Source: a virus
DNA: 21,275 bases
Direction: 5' to 3' (one strand)
Virus record (IMG/VR): IMGVR_UViG_3300044994_000189
Location: 1 to 21,275 of that record
Shown here in pieces: positions 4,489 through 10,342 of the stretch; position 1 is the stretch's first letter; each line of letters opens with the position of its first letter. Position numbers and translations under genes: made by a program. Below the pieces are notes generated by a model. The model was not told where the DNA came from, did not search any database, and saw nothing but the letters and a program-made list of their open reading frames with translations.

Positions 4489-5408
4489 CCCTCGACACCG
4501 CCACCGATGCCGACGCCGCCGCCGCCCCTGGCGGCCTGCTCGATCTCGCCCCCGCAACCGAGGTGCCCGCCGCCCCGCCCGCTGGGCACCCCGCCGCCAC
4601 CAGCCCAGCACCCGCCGAAACCGCACCCACGCCCCAGGGAGAGGCGAAGCCGGCCCAGGCCAAGGCAGCACCCGCGCGGCCCGAAGGCCTGCCCGATGCG
4701 TTCTGGGACGCCGACAAGGGCGAGGTGAAGCTCGCCGAGCTCATCAAGAGCCAGGCCGACCTGCGCCGCATCGTCTCGCGCGGCGAGCACAAGCCGCCAC
4801 CGACGCCCGATGACTACAAGCTGCCTGCCAACGACAAGATTCCCGCCGACCTGATCACGCCGGACGATCCGCTGTGGAAAGCCACCACGGCGGCGGCGCA
4901 TGCGCGCGGCTTCAGCCAGGCGGACCTTGAAGCGCTCGCCACGCCGTTCCTCACCACGCTCGCCGAGCTGACCAAGGACGCGCGCCCGATGACCGCGGAG
5001 CAGGCCAAGGCCGCGCAGGAACAGGCCATGGCGGCCGAGATGGCCAAGCTCGGCCAGCAGGGGCCGGCGATCATCCGCGGCGTCGACACCTGGCTCAAGG
5101 GCCTGGCCGCCAAGCAGGTGATCACCACCGACGAGCTCGCCGCGCTGCGCGCCACCGCCACCGCCGATGGCGTGCGCGCGCTCGCCAAGCTGCGCGAGCT
5201 CGCGGGCGAGCGCTCGCTCGGCATCAACGCCGGCGCCGCCCCCGAGATCGGCAGCGAGGAGGAGGCGCGGGCGCTGCTGCGCCAGGGCTTCGCCGCCGGC
5301 GGCGAGCAGACCGACGCGGGCCGCGCGCTGCTCGAGAAGGGCCGCGACATGCTCCGTCGCCTCGAGGCGGCCGGGGTGACGCTCGGCACCGTGCGGCAGC
5401 CGCGGTGA
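4485..5408 (+). CDS. Capsid assembly scaffolding protein
   Basis: This 307-residue protein has the size of T7 gp9 (307). It should form the internal scaffold on which the capsid protein co-assembles before packaging, and then leave the head. Residues 1-65 are Ala/Pro-rich and probably disordered. The conserved segment starts near residue 69 with LPDAFWDADKGEVKLAELIK and QADLRRIV, typical of podophage scaffolds. A PxxPDDYKLP stretch follows, then long acidic, helical and Ala-rich sequence. The C-terminal helices (EARALLRQGF, KGRDMLRRLEAAG) could be the capsid-binding end. It starts in an ATGA overlap and lies directly before the capsid leader. The family call is good; domain limits are approximate. 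Confidence 0.88.
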   Translation: MTLDTATDADAAAAPGGLLDLAPATEVPAAPPAGHPAATSPAPAETAPTPQGEAKPAQAKAAPARPEGLPDAFWDADKGEVKLAELIKSQADLRRIVSRGEHKPPPTPDDYKLPANDKIPADLITPDDPLWKATTAAAHARGFSQADLEALATPFLTTLAELTKDARPMTAEQAKAAQEQAMAAEMAKLGQQGPAIIRGVDTWLKGLAAKQVITTDELAALRATATADGVRALAKLRELAGERSLGINAGAAPEIGSEEEARALLRQGFAAGGEQTDAGRALLEKGRDMLRRLEAAGVTLGTVRQPR

Positions 5409-5706: not shown

Positions 5707-6546
5707 ATGTCCATCCAGCTCAGCCAAATCGCCCAGATCGAGTTCGACGAGCAGATCAAGGCGGCCTACCAGGGCGCCGGCATCCTGCGCCCGCATGTGC
5801 GCGTGCGCACCGGCGTCGTCGGCAACACCTGCGAGTTCCGCCGCTTCGCCCGCGGCCTCGCCACGCCCCGCGTGCCGCAGACCGACGTGGTGCCCATGAA
5901 CATCGGCTATGCCAAGCGGCAAGCCGTGCTCGCCGACTGGAACGCCGCCGAATACACCGACGTGTTCGACCAGGCCACCACCAACGTCGACGAGAAGCCG
6001 ATCGTCGCGGCCAACATCGCCGCCGCCATCGGCCGCCGCGAGGACCAGATGATCCTCGATGCGCTCGATGCCGCCAACCCCACGGTGACGATCGATACCA
6101 ACGTCGGCGGCGCCAACAGCGGCATGAACCTTGCCAAGCTGCGCCGCGCCAAGCGGTTCCTCGACGACCGCGCCGTGCCCACCGGCATGCGCTGCCTCGT
6201 CCACTCCGCCGAGGCGCTCGAGCAGCTCCTGAGCCTGCCGGAGGTCACCAGCACCGACTACAACACCGTCAAGGCGCTCGTGAATGGCGAGGTGAACACC
6301 TACATGGGCTTCACGCTCGCCATGATGGAGGCGCGCGACGAGGGCGGCCTGCCCAGGACCGGCGCGCTGCGCACGTCCTTCGCCTTCGACAAGATGGCGC
6401 TCGGCCTCGCCATCGGCATCGACTACCGCAACGAGGTCTACTACATCCCCGAGAAGACCTCCTGGCTCGCCAACGGCCTGTTCAAGGCCGGCGCGGTGTC
6501 GATCGACGACCTTGGCGTGGTCGAGATTCAGCACACCGAAGCCTGA
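5707..6546 (+). CDS. Major capsid protein
   Basis: This 279-residue protein builds the icosahedral head shell. It is shorter than T7 gp10A (about 345). The sequence reads as a phage capsid protein of the BPP-1/T7-like podophage group: an N-terminal helix (AQIEFDEQIKAAYQGAG), a strand with NTCEFRRFARGLA, and RVPQTDVVPMNIGYAKRQAV leading into DWNAAEYTDVFDQATTNVDE. A long helix follows (IAAAIGRREDQMILDAL). The C-terminal part has MRCLVHSAEALEQLL, MGFTLAMMEAR and RNEVYYIPEKTSWLANGLFK, ending in VSIDDLGVVEIQHTEA, the kind of closing strand common in HK97-fold capsids. The neighbours (scaffold before, small accessory genes after) agree. The HK97 fold is inferred. Its separate leader and ribosome-binding site suggest high, independent expression. 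Confidence 0.9.
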   Translation: MSIQLSQIAQIEFDEQIKAAYQGAGILRPHVRVRTGVVGNTCEFRRFARGLATPRVPQTDVVPMNIGYAKRQAVLADWNAAEYTDVFDQATTNVDEKPIVAANIAAAIGRREDQMILDALDAANPTVTIDTNVGGANSGMNLAKLRRAKRFLDDRAVPTGMRCLVHSAEALEQLLSLPEVTSTDYNTVKALVNGEVNTYMGFTLAMMEARDEGGLPRTGALRTSFAFDKMALGLAIGIDYRNEVYYIPEKTSWLANGLFKAGAVSIDDLGVVEIQHTEA

Positions 6547-6551
6547 GGAGG
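6545..6551 (+). promoter_or_regulatory. Ribosome-binding site deciding the start at 6557
   Basis: GAGGAGG lies just after the capsid stop, 5 bases before the ATG at 6557. It favours this start over an in-frame ATG at 6512 inside the capsid gene. The resulting MPF start matches those of the two paralogous genes downstream. Confidence 0.65.
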
Positions 6552-6556
6552 GTCCC

Positions 6557-6856
6557 ATGCCTTTCGTTCGAGCGAACTTCCAGCCCATCGGCGGGTCCCG
6601 TCCCGGCATCGGCGGCGCGCCGATGGCGTGGAGCTACAAGACCAACGACCCCATGACGACGGTGCGCGCGGTCGGCTACTTCAACGAGGTGCGCAGCCTG
6701 CTCAACATCGGCGACGAGATCAGGGTCGTCATCGTCACCAACCTCGGACAGCCCAACGAGGCGCTGTCGTCGGTGGTGCGCTGCGCCGTGATCACCAAGA
6801 CCGCCACCACGGTCGACGTGACCGATGGTGTCTCCGAGGCCATCACCAACACCTGA
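6557..6856 (+). CDS. Small virion-associated protein, first of three paralogues; possible decoration protein
   Basis: This encodes a 99-residue protein directly after the capsid gene. Its key stretches are QPIGG, WSYKTNDPMTTVRAVGYF, LNIGDEIRVVIVT and late strands (RCAVITKTATTVDV). The same plan (IGG, W-x-Y-[RK]-T-x-D, G-Y-[FW], GD-x-[IV], beta-strands) appears in the proteins starting at 6910 and 7149, so the three are paralogues. The fold is probably all-beta. The position beside capsid, and a terminator right behind it, suggest high expression together with capsid and a head decoration or cement role, as BPP-1-like phages have at this locus. That role is inferred. A spacer (about residues 14-22) absent from the other two is present near the N-terminus. 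Confidence 0.8.
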   Translation: MPFVRANFQPIGGSRPGIGGAPMAWSYKTNDPMTTVRAVGYFNEVRSLLNIGDEIRVVIVTNLGQPNEALSSVVRCAVITKTATTVDVTDGVSEAITNT

Positions 6857-6864
6857 TGGCCGCA

Positions 6865-6890
6865 CGGGCGGGGGCTTCGGCCCCCGCCCG
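6865..6890 (+). terminator. Intrinsic terminator with UUCG tetraloop
   Basis: A perfect 11-base-pair stem (6865-6875 with 6880-6890) closes a C(UUCG)G tetraloop, one of the most stable RNA hairpins. It begins 8 bases after the stop of the gene at 6557. The following tract (CTTGCTC) is short on U, so read-through is likely and termination probably partial. It separates capsid and its first companion gene from all later genes, like the partial terminator after the T7 capsid gene. Confidence 0.75.
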
Positions 6891-6897
6891 CTTGCTC

Positions 6898-6902
6898 GGA
6901 GG
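6898..6902 (+). promoter_or_regulatory. Ribosome-binding site for the gene at 6910
   Basis: GGAGG stands 7 bases before the ATG at 6910, just behind the terminator hairpin. It fixes the start of the 79-residue protein rather than an upstream in-frame start inside the previous gene. Confidence 0.65.
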
Positions 6903-6909
6903 CGTCCCG

Positions 6910-7149
6910 ATGCCGTTCTCGCTCAGCAGCCTGCAGCACATCGGCGGCGGCCTCTGGTCCTACCGCACCACCGACACTGCCGCAGCCGTCAACGCGGCGA
7001 ACTACTGGGGCCAGTCCTGGCCGCTGATGCGCGTCGGCGACCAGGTGCTGCGCACCACGCTCGACAACGCCGGCGCCGTGGTCAGCCATGGCACCCACGT
7101 TGTCATCAGCGCCACGCGGACGGCCGCAACCACCAGCGGCGGCACCTGA
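6910..7149 (+). CDS. Small structural protein, second paralogue
   Basis: This 79-residue protein consists almost entirely of the shared domain: MPF start, HIGGG, WSYRTTDTAAAV, a YW pair, RVGDQV, then LDNAGAVVSHGTHVVIS and TRT. By hand alignment about 36 of 77 positions are identical to the N-terminus of the next protein. It is probably a minimal all-beta unit. It lies between a terminator and its longer paralogue, and its stop overlaps that gene's ATG as TGATG. It may be a free decoration subunit or a partner of the longer protein. The function is inferred from location only. Confidence 0.8.
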   Translation: MPFSLSSLQHIGGGLWSYRTTDTAAAVNAANYWGQSWPLMRVGDQVLRTTLDNAGAVVSHGTHVVISATRTAATTSGGT

Positions 7150-8234
7150 TGCCGTTCGACCCGCGCGAGCTGCGGTCCATCGGCGGCGGCGTGCATCGCT
7201 ACCGCACCACCGACAGCGCCGCCACCGTCGCCGCGCCCGGCTACTGGACCGGCGCCTGGCCGGCGCTGCGCCGCGGCGATCATGTCTTCGTCGTCACGCT
7301 CGACGGGCAGGGCCAGGTGGTCACGTCCGGCCGGCACATCATCACCACATCGACGCGCACCGAGGTGTCGAGCGCCGCCGAGACCGTATCCGGCATGACC
7401 AGCAGCCTCTCGTGGCCGCTCACCCTCAGCATGAGCGCGCTGCCGGACGGCGGCTTCAGTCCGGCGTTGCTCGACCCCACCATCGCCTTCGATGCGCAGA
7501 ATGCCGCCGTGTTCGGCGGCAGCTTCCCGGCCGACGGCGCCAACGTCAGCAGCACATCCGCCGTGTGGGGCGCCACGCACACGCTGGCGCAGCGCAATTC
7601 CGCGCCCGTGCCGACCTTCGCGGTCGATGCGCTGGGCTCAGGCCGCCATGCGCTCAGGTTCCTCAACACGGCAAGCCAGCAATTGGCCTCGACCGGCGCG
7701 CCCGCACCGTTCTGGGGCACCAACCCATCGGCGACTCTGGTGGTGGTGGCGCGCTGGCCGACGGGCGGCAACGGCACCGGCACGCAGTTCCTCGCCGGCG
7801 TGTGCCATCCGCCCGGCACCAGCAACGCCGCGCACAACAACTTCGCCATCATCACCCAGACCAACGGCACCATCGGCCGCGCGACGGGGGCCACGACAAG
7901 CGGCGACCTGCAGCTCGGCTCCGCCGGGGCGGATAACGACAACCTGCTGTTCTTCCTCGAGCGAAACGGCGCGGCAGCCTCGGGCACACGACTGAGACTA
8001 TCCCGCGACGGAACGGCCGACGCGAGCGCGGGCCCTGGCGGCACCGACACGCTGACCGGTGCCGCCGCGGCCTCCTCCGTCATCTTCTCGGTCGGCGCGC
8101 GCGAATACAACAACGCGGCCAGCCTGTTTCTCAATGCATGGGTCGGCGCGGTCTATCTCATCCCGCGCGCGCTGACCGCCACCGAAAAGACCGACTTCAA
8201 CACCTGGCTGCGCAGCCGCTGGGGGATCGCATGA
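7149..8234 (+). CDS. Third paralogue fused to a concanavalin/LamG-like domain; virion surface protein
   Basis: This encodes a 361-residue protein. Residues 1-80 are the shared domain (RSIGGG, YRTTDSAATV, GYW, RRGDHV, LDGQGQVVTSG). A linker follows, then from about residue 100 a sequence with the look of a concanavalin A/LamG-like beta-sandwich: LDPTIAFDAQNAAVFGG, HALRFLNTASQQLAS, ATLVVVARWP, a long strand-rich middle, NAWVGAVYLIPRALT and the ending FNTWLRSRWGIA, which is typical for such domains in bacterial and phage proteins. The likely role is glycan binding on the virion surface, with the N-terminal unit as the docking part. The ATG is chosen by the TGATG overlap and by the MPF start shared with its relatives. 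It could be a head fibre or a tail-side adhesin. Confidence 0.8.
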   Translation: MPFDPRELRSIGGGVHRYRTTDSAATVAAPGYWTGAWPALRRGDHVFVVTLDGQGQVVTSGRHIITTSTRTEVSSAAETVSGMTSSLSWPLTLSMSALPDGGFSPALLDPTIAFDAQNAAVFGGSFPADGANVSSTSAVWGATHTLAQRNSAPVPTFAVDALGSGRHALRFLNTASQQLASTGAPAPFWGTNPSATLVVVARWPTGGNGTGTQFLAGVCHPPGTSNAAHNNFAIITQTNGTIGRATGATTSGDLQLGSAGADNDNLLFFLERNGAAASGTRLRLSRDGTADASAGPGGTDTLTGAAAASSVIFSVGAREYNNAASLFLNAWVGAVYLIPRALTATEKTDFNTWLRSRWGIA

Positions 8235-9430
8235 CCGCGCGTTTCCCCAACTTCGACGTGATCCTCTGCGGCCAAAGCCAGGCGGTGATGTTCGCCAATG
8301 GCGCCGGCGAGACGGTGGACGGCGGGCTTGCCAATGTGGCGCGCGTGCGGCTGCAGAACGAGCTGGCCACCTTGGCCCCCGGCGTGACGTGCTTCGTCGG
8401 CCCGGCCGGATCGAACGTCACCTTCTACGCCGACAGCCCGTTGTTCGAGGAATACCGCGGCGTTGCGTCGGAGGCGTTCTTCGACGCCTCCCCGTTCGCC
8501 AATCGCAGCAAGGGCACCAGCCAGCGCAACTACATCAACGGCCGCGCCGCCGCCAACAAGGCCGGGCTTGTCGTCATCTACCAGCACGCGCAGGATGTCG
8601 CCGCTGGCGTCCCTGGCTTCCCGGCCGGCTATGCCGCAGGCGTGGGAGCCTATGTCGATGCGCTGATCGCTGACGCCGGCACGGCCGGATGGGGCGACTT
8701 CGCGATCCTGCCCGTGCTCAGCACCACGCGCGGCAACGGCAGCGAGGAGCACCTGACCGCCTATCGCCGCGCCTGGGCGGCAGTGGCCGGCGATGATGTA
8801 TGGCAAGGGCTCACCCGGCGCCCGCAGGTGCTCACCCCGCTCTACAACATCACCACCACGCCCGCCATAGCCGTCAACGGTGCGGATCAAACCCACTTCA
8901 CGCGCATCGCCGCGCACCGCAACGCCATCGCGATCGCGCAGCGCGCCGCCGGCTGGCTCGGCTTTGCCACGCCCATGGCCGATCAGCCGCGCCTGCGCCG
9001 CGCGCGGCTGATCACCCCCACCACCGTGCGCGCCTTCATCGCCACCGGCAAACGCGGCGCGGCGTTGCAACTGCAGAACGTGGCGACGGCGCGCTGGTCA
9101 TTCATCGGCGGCGGCACGGTGTCGGCCGTCTCGGCCGTCAACAACGCCGACGTGGCGACCACCGGCTATGCGACGATCGACCTGACCGTGTCCGGCGTGG
9201 TCGCGGGATCCTCACGCCTCAGGTTCTCGGCCAACTTCGCCACGCCGCTCTACCAGAATGGCCACACGCCGCCGCGCGGCCCCCTGCTCAACGCCGCCTG
9301 GGGCCTGGCGCCAGGCACCACGCTCGCCACCGTCACCGATACCGGCGAGGACGTGAAACTGCCATCCGGGCAATACGCCATCGGCATGGCCAATTGCGAC
9401 GCTGGCGTCATCGTGGAGGCAGCAGCATGA
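8231..9430 (+). CDS. SGNH/GDSL-type esterase-like virion protein, possible surface glycan deacetylase
   Basis: This encodes a 399-residue protein. Strand one runs into the nucleophile motif (FDVILCGQSQAV, Ser16), as in the GQS-type sialate-O-acetylesterase-like SGNH enzymes. Asp219 and His222 lie in ADQTHFTRIAAHR and fit the D-x-x-H of block V. Between them, VVIYQHAQDVAAG and FAILPVLSTTRGNG read as core strands. Residues about 270-399 form a strand-rich C-terminal part that may be a trimerisation or carbohydrate-binding domain. The inferred activity is removal of acyl groups from capsule, O-antigen or exopolysaccharide during adsorption, and it stands next to a lectin-like gene. There is no signal peptide, which fits a virion component. 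The start is the ATGA overlap. The substrate is unknown. Confidence 0.75.
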   Translation: MTARFPNFDVILCGQSQAVMFANGAGETVDGGLANVARVRLQNELATLAPGVTCFVGPAGSNVTFYADSPLFEEYRGVASEAFFDASPFANRSKGTSQRNYINGRAAANKAGLVVIYQHAQDVAAGVPGFPAGYAAGVGAYVDALIADAGTAGWGDFAILPVLSTTRGNGSEEHLTAYRRAWAAVAGDDVWQGLTRRPQVLTPLYNITTTPAIAVNGADQTHFTRIAAHRNAIAIAQRAAGWLGFATPMADQPRLRRARLITPTTVRAFIATGKRGAALQLQNVATARWSFIGGGTVSAVSAVNNADVATTGYATIDLTVSGVVAGSSRLRFSANFATPLYQNGHTPPRGPLLNAAWGLAPGTTLATVTDTGEDVKLPSGQYAIGMANCDAGVIVEAAA

Positions 9431-9798
9431 GCCAATTCGGAACGGATGGTGCGTCTCTTGCCCTCGCCGCGGCCCTGGGCGGCACGCTCTACGTCGCGCT
9501 CGGCACGGGGCAGAATCTCGGCGCGCTGACCGGCGAAGCCGCCGGTGGCGGCTATGCGCGCGCGGCGCTCGGCACCGTGACATTCAGTGGCCACCAGGCG
9601 CAGAACGCCGCGACGGTGACGTTCCCGACGCCGACGGCGACCCTCGGCACGTTCACGCACGCGGCCATCTTCGATGCGCCGACGGGCGGCAACTGCCGTG
9701 CCGTCGGCCCTCTCGTGGCGGCGGTGGACTGGACGACCGGCCAGCCCGTCAGTTTCCCCGCGGGCGCCATGCAGTTCGAGGCGGTGCGCGCGCCATGA
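9427..9798 (+). CDS. Gp80-type phage tail-fibre-like protein
   Basis: This encodes a 123-residue, all-beta protein. The order LYVALGTGQ, TGEAAGGGYARAAL, NAATVTFPTPTATLGTFTHAAIFDA, GGNCRAVGPL and PVSFPAGAMQFE matches a widespread family annotated as phage tail fibre protein or Gp80-like minor tail protein. In that family the GGGYAR and GT-x-TH-x-x-IFDA signatures are conserved. It is probably a small structural subunit of the tail tip or of a fibre. It starts and ends in ATGA overlaps. Family membership is fairly clear; its place in this virion is not. Confidence 0.8.
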   Translation: MSQFGTDGASLALAAALGGTLYVALGTGQNLGALTGEAAGGGYARAALGTVTFSGHQAQNAATVTFPTPTATLGTFTHAAIFDAPTGGNCRAVGPLVAAVDWTTGQPVSFPAGAMQFEAVRAP

Positions 9799-9962
9799 CC
9801 CGCCGCGTGCCTGCCACGCGCCGTGTGTGGCGGCCCGCGCCGATGCCCGCGCACGAGGCGCTGGCAATCCTCATCGCCTATGCGACGGAAGGGGCTGCGC
9901 TCAAGCGCGAGGCCAACGCCGCGCGGCGGCGCGCGCGGCAGCGCAAAAAGGCAGGGCCGTGA
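9795..9962 (+). CDS. Very small basic protein, 55 residues
   Basis: This short frame starts at the ATG overlapping the previous stop (ATGA, 9795-9798) and ends overlapping the next start (GTGA, 9959-9962). Leaving it out would create a 160-base hole in an otherwise seamless gene run. The product is strongly basic: an Arg-rich head (TRRVPATRRVWRPAP), a short helix (AHEALAILIAYATEGAALK) and an Arg/Lys tail (ARRRARQRKKAGP). It might bind nucleic acid or act as a small virion or chaperone subunit, but no family is recognised. Confidence 0.6.
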   Translation: MTRRVPATRRVWRPAPMPAHEALAILIAYATEGAALKREANAARRRARQRKKAGP

Positions 9963-10342
9963 GATACCATCCCGCCAGCCCGCTCGCCATCGATGCGGAG
10001 CCGTTCCACTCCGCCGTCGATGCGCTGCGCTGGGCCTTCGCCGCCGTGCAGGAGCGCGGCTCGGGCGCCTGGTGCCCGGCGGCGGTGCCGCAGCGCGCCC
10101 ACACGACGCCGCGCCCCTGCGAGCCGGTGGACGTGATCCGCGTGTGCGACATGGTGATCGAGAAATACCGGCTCGACCAGCAGGAGCAGACGCTGATCGT
10201 GTGCGCGGGCCTGGGCACACTCTCGGGCCAGCAATGGCGCTCGGCCCAATGGCAGGCCATCGAGGACCGCCTGACCTGGTATCTTCAAGCCAAGGGGATC
10301 GTGCAACGGCCGGGGGGCCAGACAGAGGAACCCAGCGGATGA
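9959..10342 (+). CDS. Hypothetical protein, 127 residues, GTG start
   Basis: The start is the GTG at 9959, overlapping the preceding stop as GTGA; the longer in-frame extension upstream overlaps two other genes and is not credible. The protein has an N-terminal helix (AVDALRWAFAAVQE), a Cys/Pro segment (Cys39 in AWCP, Cys54 in RPCEP), and then helices VIRVCDMVIEKYRLDQQEQ, LIVCAGLG and AIEDRLTWYLQAKGI. The last two could form a helix-turn-helix-like pair. Four cysteines are present (39, 54, 63, 82) but no clear zinc motif. It is in an operon-like run, ending in an ATGA overlap with a membrane protein gene. The function is unknown. Confidence 0.6.
   Translation: MRYHPASPLAIDAEPFHSAVDALRWAFAAVQERGSGAWCPAAVPQRAHTTPRPCEPVDVIRVCDMVIEKYRLDQQEQTLIVCAGLGTLSGQQWRSAQWQAIEDRLTWYLQAKGIVQRPGGQTEEPSG

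Follow-up and report, generated by a model that had tools for sequence, protein, structure and literature searches.

Here, we show that three adjacent genes, designated D1, D2, and D3, which follow the major capsid protein gene in a 21,275-base virus record from IMG/VR (analyzed here over its whole length as the window; GC content about 0.72), encode one common domain of about 80 residues, and that the single convincing solved relative of this domain belongs to the capsid of LME-1. Because of its homology to LME-1 orf16, the match in fold, and its adjacency to the capsid gene, we read D1 with little doubt as a capsid decoration protein. It is furthermore probable that D2 and D3 are paralogous anchors related to an ancestral decoration protein and that D3 displays an exchangeable binding module on the phage head. 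The steps obtained are homology, fold, synteny, duplication, and module exchange, whereas capsid binding by D2 and D3 would follow from homology.

A common domain and its capsid-borne relative

Judged from its genes, the window has an order of the podophage type: terminase (cut at the left end), portal, scaffold, capsid protein, D1 to D3, a putative esterase, and a gp80-like protein, followed by small genes, tail tubular A and B, and internal virion proteins, the names of the tail and internal virion genes being assigned by position and relatives (Table 1). D1 starts 11 bp past the capsid gene, and D2 and D3 follow it, 382 and 621 bp downstream of the capsid gene. A sequence-only reading had placed the three genes at 6557-7440; the three starts were right, but the D3 gene (361 aa, 7149-8234), whose ATG overlaps the D2 stop codon as TGATG, ends only at 8234. 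The protein encoded at 8231-9430 had no Pfam, PHROG, or PDB match and is a putative SGNH-like esterase/hydrolase by its motifs.

Table 1. Features of the capsid region and of the adjoining cassette in the window
Feature	Position	Strand	Evidence
Major capsid protein, 279 aa	5707..6546	+	Pfam PF19821 E 1.2e-70; PDB 9EG4 chain A (LME-1 capsid) E 1.1e-38
D1, probable ancestral capsid decoration protein, 99 aa	6557..6856	+	PHROG 18004 E 9.6e-12; AlphaFold pLDDT 91.8
GC stem-loop, 11 bp stem, TTCG loop, no T-run	6865..6890	+	directly after D1 stop
D2, free-standing domain paralog, 79 aa	6910..7149	+	PHROG 18004 E 4.3e-8; 86% identity to L005 copy; dN/dS 0.18
D3 N-terminal domain (putative anchor), residues 1-82	7149..7394	+	PHROG 18004 E 1e-4; orf16 Z 10.2
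D3 C-terminal module, ~280 aa	7395..8234	+	last ~100 residues like Arthrobacter phage Mendel gp23 C-terminus
Putative SGNH-type esterase/hydrolase, 399 aa	8231..9430	+	motifs only: GQSQA near N-terminus, DQTH further on
GP4 fiber I (gp80)-like protein, 123 aa	9427..9798	+	PF23140 E 6.6e-19; PDB 8jou chain a E 2.6e-5
Small ORF, 55 aa, final cassette gene	9795..9962	+	next gene (9959-10342) matches genes directly after D1 in L014/L015

All three proteins start with MPF, share the motifs IGG, [W/H]-x-Y-[RK]-T-x-D, [G/N]-Y-[WF], and GD-x-[IV], and match PHROG 18004, a family without assigned function. Their pairwise Smith-Waterman scores (BLOSUM62; 196 for D2/D3, 96 for D1/D2, and 83 for D1/D3) were never reached by shuffled sequences (2,000 per pair; maximum 50 to 56), and the domain is thus common to the three well over chance, as had been proposed on the basis of hand alignment. 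The condition set for rejecting that proposal, a first protein without significant similarity to the second and third, therefore does not hold. The agreement of about 36 of 77 positions estimated in that way for D2 and D3 is close to the computed 37 of 79 ungapped positions, and the insertion ascribed to D1 is 9 residues long and lies after IGG.

When a profile built from 57 domain sequences was searched against the PDB, a single solved chain matched convincingly, namely, orf16 of entry 9EG4 (residues 1-99, E 1.8e-5). By its title, this entry is the icosahedral capsid of the LME-1 phage; LME-1 is a Legionella element (PMC9765430, PMC5071653). The entry comprises 7 chains of orf16 and 7 chains of a capsid protein homologous to that of the window, bearing out the assumption that the shared domain is capsid associated. 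An AlphaFold model of D1 superimposed on chain H of 9EG4 with Z 11.0 (1.7 Å, 77 residues), versus Z 5.7 for the runner-up. The D3 N-terminal model (pLDDT 89-98, residues 1-80) gave 1.6 Å over 70 residues, with the next best match at about Z 6, a fold match not fully independent of that of D1, since the D3 model used an alignment shared with D1. 9EG4 was absent among the Foldseek matches listed for D1 and ranked first by VIA re-alignment. PDB searches with P0001 and P0003 singly returned nothing credible, with weak matches to Scone-E/-R.

Chain H covers 89 residues (2-90) of the 269-residue orf16 protein, and since only this part is resolved, orf16 looks like an ordered capsid-bound domain with a mobile C-terminus. 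Like D3, orf16 has a part C-terminal to the capsid-bound domain; however, its C-terminal ~180 residues are absent from the solved chain, so that the likeness to D3 covers the N-terminal domain only. Furthermore, orf16 is one protein in the capsid entry, whereas the window encodes three paralogs.

Loci carrying the domain were collected with the capsid protein as query and, separately, with the domain alone. Among loci with a capsid gene, 160 of 168 domain copies lay less than 200 bp downstream of that gene, finds by the domain alone included; domain identity went down to about 25-35%, and some loci overlap or are near-identical, so that these are not independent cases. This distribution agrees with the earlier description of D1 as a companion of the capsid protein. 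One locus is without a capsid gene, its sequence ending just upstream, and a Vibrio phage group (L004) has a related capsid protein without the domain. A search of bacterial genomes with a D2/D3 alignment found no relative of these proteins, and plasmids yielded no capsid match. Taken together, capsid decoration is the likely role of a very widespread family of unknown function encoded beside the capsid gene of many aquatic and soil podophages.

Duplication, module exchange, and the cassette holding D2 and D3

Near relatives with capsid proteins 92-94% identical to that of the window (L012 and L014-L016, as well as L010 over the part held) possess D1 and lack D2 and D3, the exceptions among L010-L016 being L011 and L013. 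Since in L014 and L015 the gene straight after D1 is a homolog of the small window gene 9959-10342 (39-40% identity, E 2e-20), the window carries an insert of about 3 kb (about 6890-9960), which contains a small ORF in addition to D2, D3, and the genes for the SGNH-like and gp80-like proteins. D1 and tail tubular A are separated by a median of 80 bp over 150 loci but by 3,827 bp in the window, and no step in composition sets the cassette apart (GC 0.68-0.72). L095, L103, and L157 have 2.6-3.0 kb between D1 and tail tubular A, and because they hold other genes there, the slot between capsid and tail genes is an insertion hot spot that takes different modules. In these loci (L095 3392-4323, L157 3997-4922, and L103 1601-3283) a small unrelated protein and longer structural-looking proteins were seen in the slot, and apparently lysis genes too.

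In a tree of the domain, D2 and D3 from the window joined those from L005 in one clade (99/99), which bears out the tandem duplication suggested earlier. Within it, the D2 proteins grouped together (98/93) and so did the D3 proteins (93/87); the D2/D3 split is therefore older than the split between the window and L005. D2 is 86% identical between the two and the D3 anchor 60%, whereas the L005 D3 C-terminus, from about residue 78, showed no similarity to that of the window by phmmer or BLAST and matches PHROG 27064. By this comparison, D3 is best described as a kept anchor with a C-terminal module that was exchanged between the window and L005. The division into docking domain and surface module made by the sequence-only reading thus found support, while its label "concanavalin-like" has no family match and is kept as a possibility.

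This module gave no match in Pfam, PHROG, NCBIfam, or the PDB, and nothing was found in a scan of IMG/VR. Over its last ~100 residues it is similar to the C-terminal end of gp23, a "minor tail protein" of Arthrobacter phage Mendel (pairwise E 5e-9), and tblastn against phages with the D3 C-terminus returned only Mendel, with E about 1. AlphaFold confidence was below 50 for D3 residues 83-334. A lectin-like, concanavalin-type module is possible.

Rough pairwise dN/dS counts from these short genes, window versus L005, were 0.18 for D2, 0.30 for the capsid protein, 0.82 for D1, and 0.89 for the D3 anchor. Given its value, D2 is a maintained protein under purifying selection, and the D3 anchor and D1 diverge fast. 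The capsid protein of L011 is 98% identical to that of the window and its D2 is identical over the 48 aa available, but its D1 (L011 6851-7156 versus window 6557-6853) is only 47% identical, and D1 alleles therefore seem to be exchanged between close relatives. Because alleles were swapped between such near-identical phages, D2 and D3 were probably not copied from the D1 allele now present in the window phage.

Duplication of the domain was also found elsewhere. L110 carries an independent one (98/96), with copies at 5001-5285 and 6426-7010, the second of which (194 aa) has its own C-terminal module of ~118 residues and sits between tail tubular A-like and B-like genes. In L115 (5287-5733), a second, diverged copy with a basic C-terminal tail lies beside D1. 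We consider, tentatively, that domain duplication together with gain of a C-terminal module arose at least twice, once in the window/L005/L011 group and once in L110, and we hold this view jointly with the modular display on heads described below.

Possible roles of D2 and D3 on the virion

The stem-loop directly after D1 may separate the capsid genes from the downstream genes in expression. Of 109 distinct sites, 60 had a stem of 9 bp or more in the 70 nt that follow the domain gene; of 101 control stretches, 1 had such a stem. Some relatives (L110, L115, and L037) have a T-run after the stem-loop, as in intrinsic terminators; in the window there is none, and a scan for the terminator consensus found no terminator. 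Strong stem-loops right after D1, varying in sequence, were also seen in L005, L011, L012, L015, L080, L110, and L115. D2 is preceded by a Shine-Dalgarno-like GGAGG of its own, the TGATG overlap is kept in both the window and L005, and all frames are intact. Production of D2 and D3 is therefore probably lower than that of the capsid protein and D1; D3 in particular, encoded past the stem-loop and coupled to D2 in translation, would be a minor component.

By analogy with LME-1 orf16, D1 would be co-produced with the major capsid protein and coat the outer capsid of a podophage head, presumably in the 1:1 ratio to the capsid protein suggested for orf16 by the composition of 9EG4. D2 and D3 would have been brought in by the ~3-kb cassette, directly behind the stem-loop with which the capsid/D1 pair ends. 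The D3 N-terminal domain would then anchor on the capsid, with the C-terminal part of ~280 residues exposed as an exchangeable appendage, which most likely would bind or adsorb to surface sugars and act alongside the SGNH-like esterase and the gp80-like fiber protein. Such a role in adsorption is suggested by the length and exchangeability of the D3 extension and by its place beside the SGNH-like and fiber proteins. D2 would be a conserved free unit, probably filling or spacing anchor sites. Two observations speak against this reading of D2 and D3, namely, the fast divergence of the D3 anchor and the lack of a T-run after the stem-loop of the window. It is about as likely as not, and thus held with somewhat less confidence than the paralogous anchors themselves, that phages of this group duplicate the decoration protein to obtain a plug-in anchor for exchangeable binding modules and that heads are mosaics of plain and adhesive subunits.

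Alternatively, D1 could be the capsid decoration protein while D2 and D3 took on a new function as tail or neck adaptors and hold a tail-side complex with the SGNH-like and gp80-like fiber proteins. The position of the cassette between capsid and tail genes, its GP4 fiber I homolog, the loss in D2 and D3 of the N-terminal loop of D1, and the second L110 copy among tail tubular genes, away from the capsid gene, would all fit. We nevertheless consider this explanation the less likely one, as the one relative with a solved structure sits on a capsid, nearly all copies are linked to a capsid gene, and short-loop versions, such as L110 D1, also occur directly after it. The shared fold, the retained conserved residues, and the strong conservation of D2 are likewise compatible with D2 and D3 being additional decoration proteins in competition with D1 for the same sites and stabilizing the head, the D3 extension having no binding role; however, an extension of 280 residues that differs in L005 and travels with SGNH-like and fiber proteins makes this improbable. 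A D3 anchor dN/dS near 0.9 might indicate that one of the duplicates, D2 or D3, is decaying and has no function, but this is highly improbable in view of the low value for D2, the intact frames, and the conservation of the TGATG overlap in L005.

Comparison with other phages

Capsid-bound adhesion proteins, among them T4 Hoc, T5 pb10, and phi29 gp8.5, are thought to aid carbohydrate-mediated attachment to cells (review PMC7602432). The role proposed for D3 would resemble theirs in being head bound and serving surface attachment. However, these proteins have Ig-like or coiled-coil folds, to which, in the comparisons made, the domain of D1 to D3 is unrelated, and, unlike them, D3 would be duplicated from a stoichiometric decoration protein. 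If D3 is head bound, head-mounted adhesins may evolve when a structural subunit is duplicated and its cargo replaced, and the domain suggests a compact natural anchor for protein display on phage heads.

The podophage head of Ralstonia phage GP4 carries a 1:1 cement protein, gp1, which is Ig-like and 157 aa long (PMC9698820), and GP4 also possesses the fiber I protein gp80, a homolog of which is encoded in the window. Gp1 was first suspected to be a homolog of the D1 to D3 domain and was rejected, as no similarity was found.

A single copy of the PHROG 18004 domain follows the capsid gene, as D1 does, in Methylophilales phage MEP301 (gp30) and in Dunaliella viridis virus SI2 (DVVG_00003). The SI2 copy has its own C-terminal extension of ~90 residues, different from that of D3. 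In SI2 (L003, NC_023841), where this decoration domain is present, the capsid protein is 54% identical to that of the window. By its gene content SI2 is a tailed phage, and its recorded algal host is therefore doubtful.
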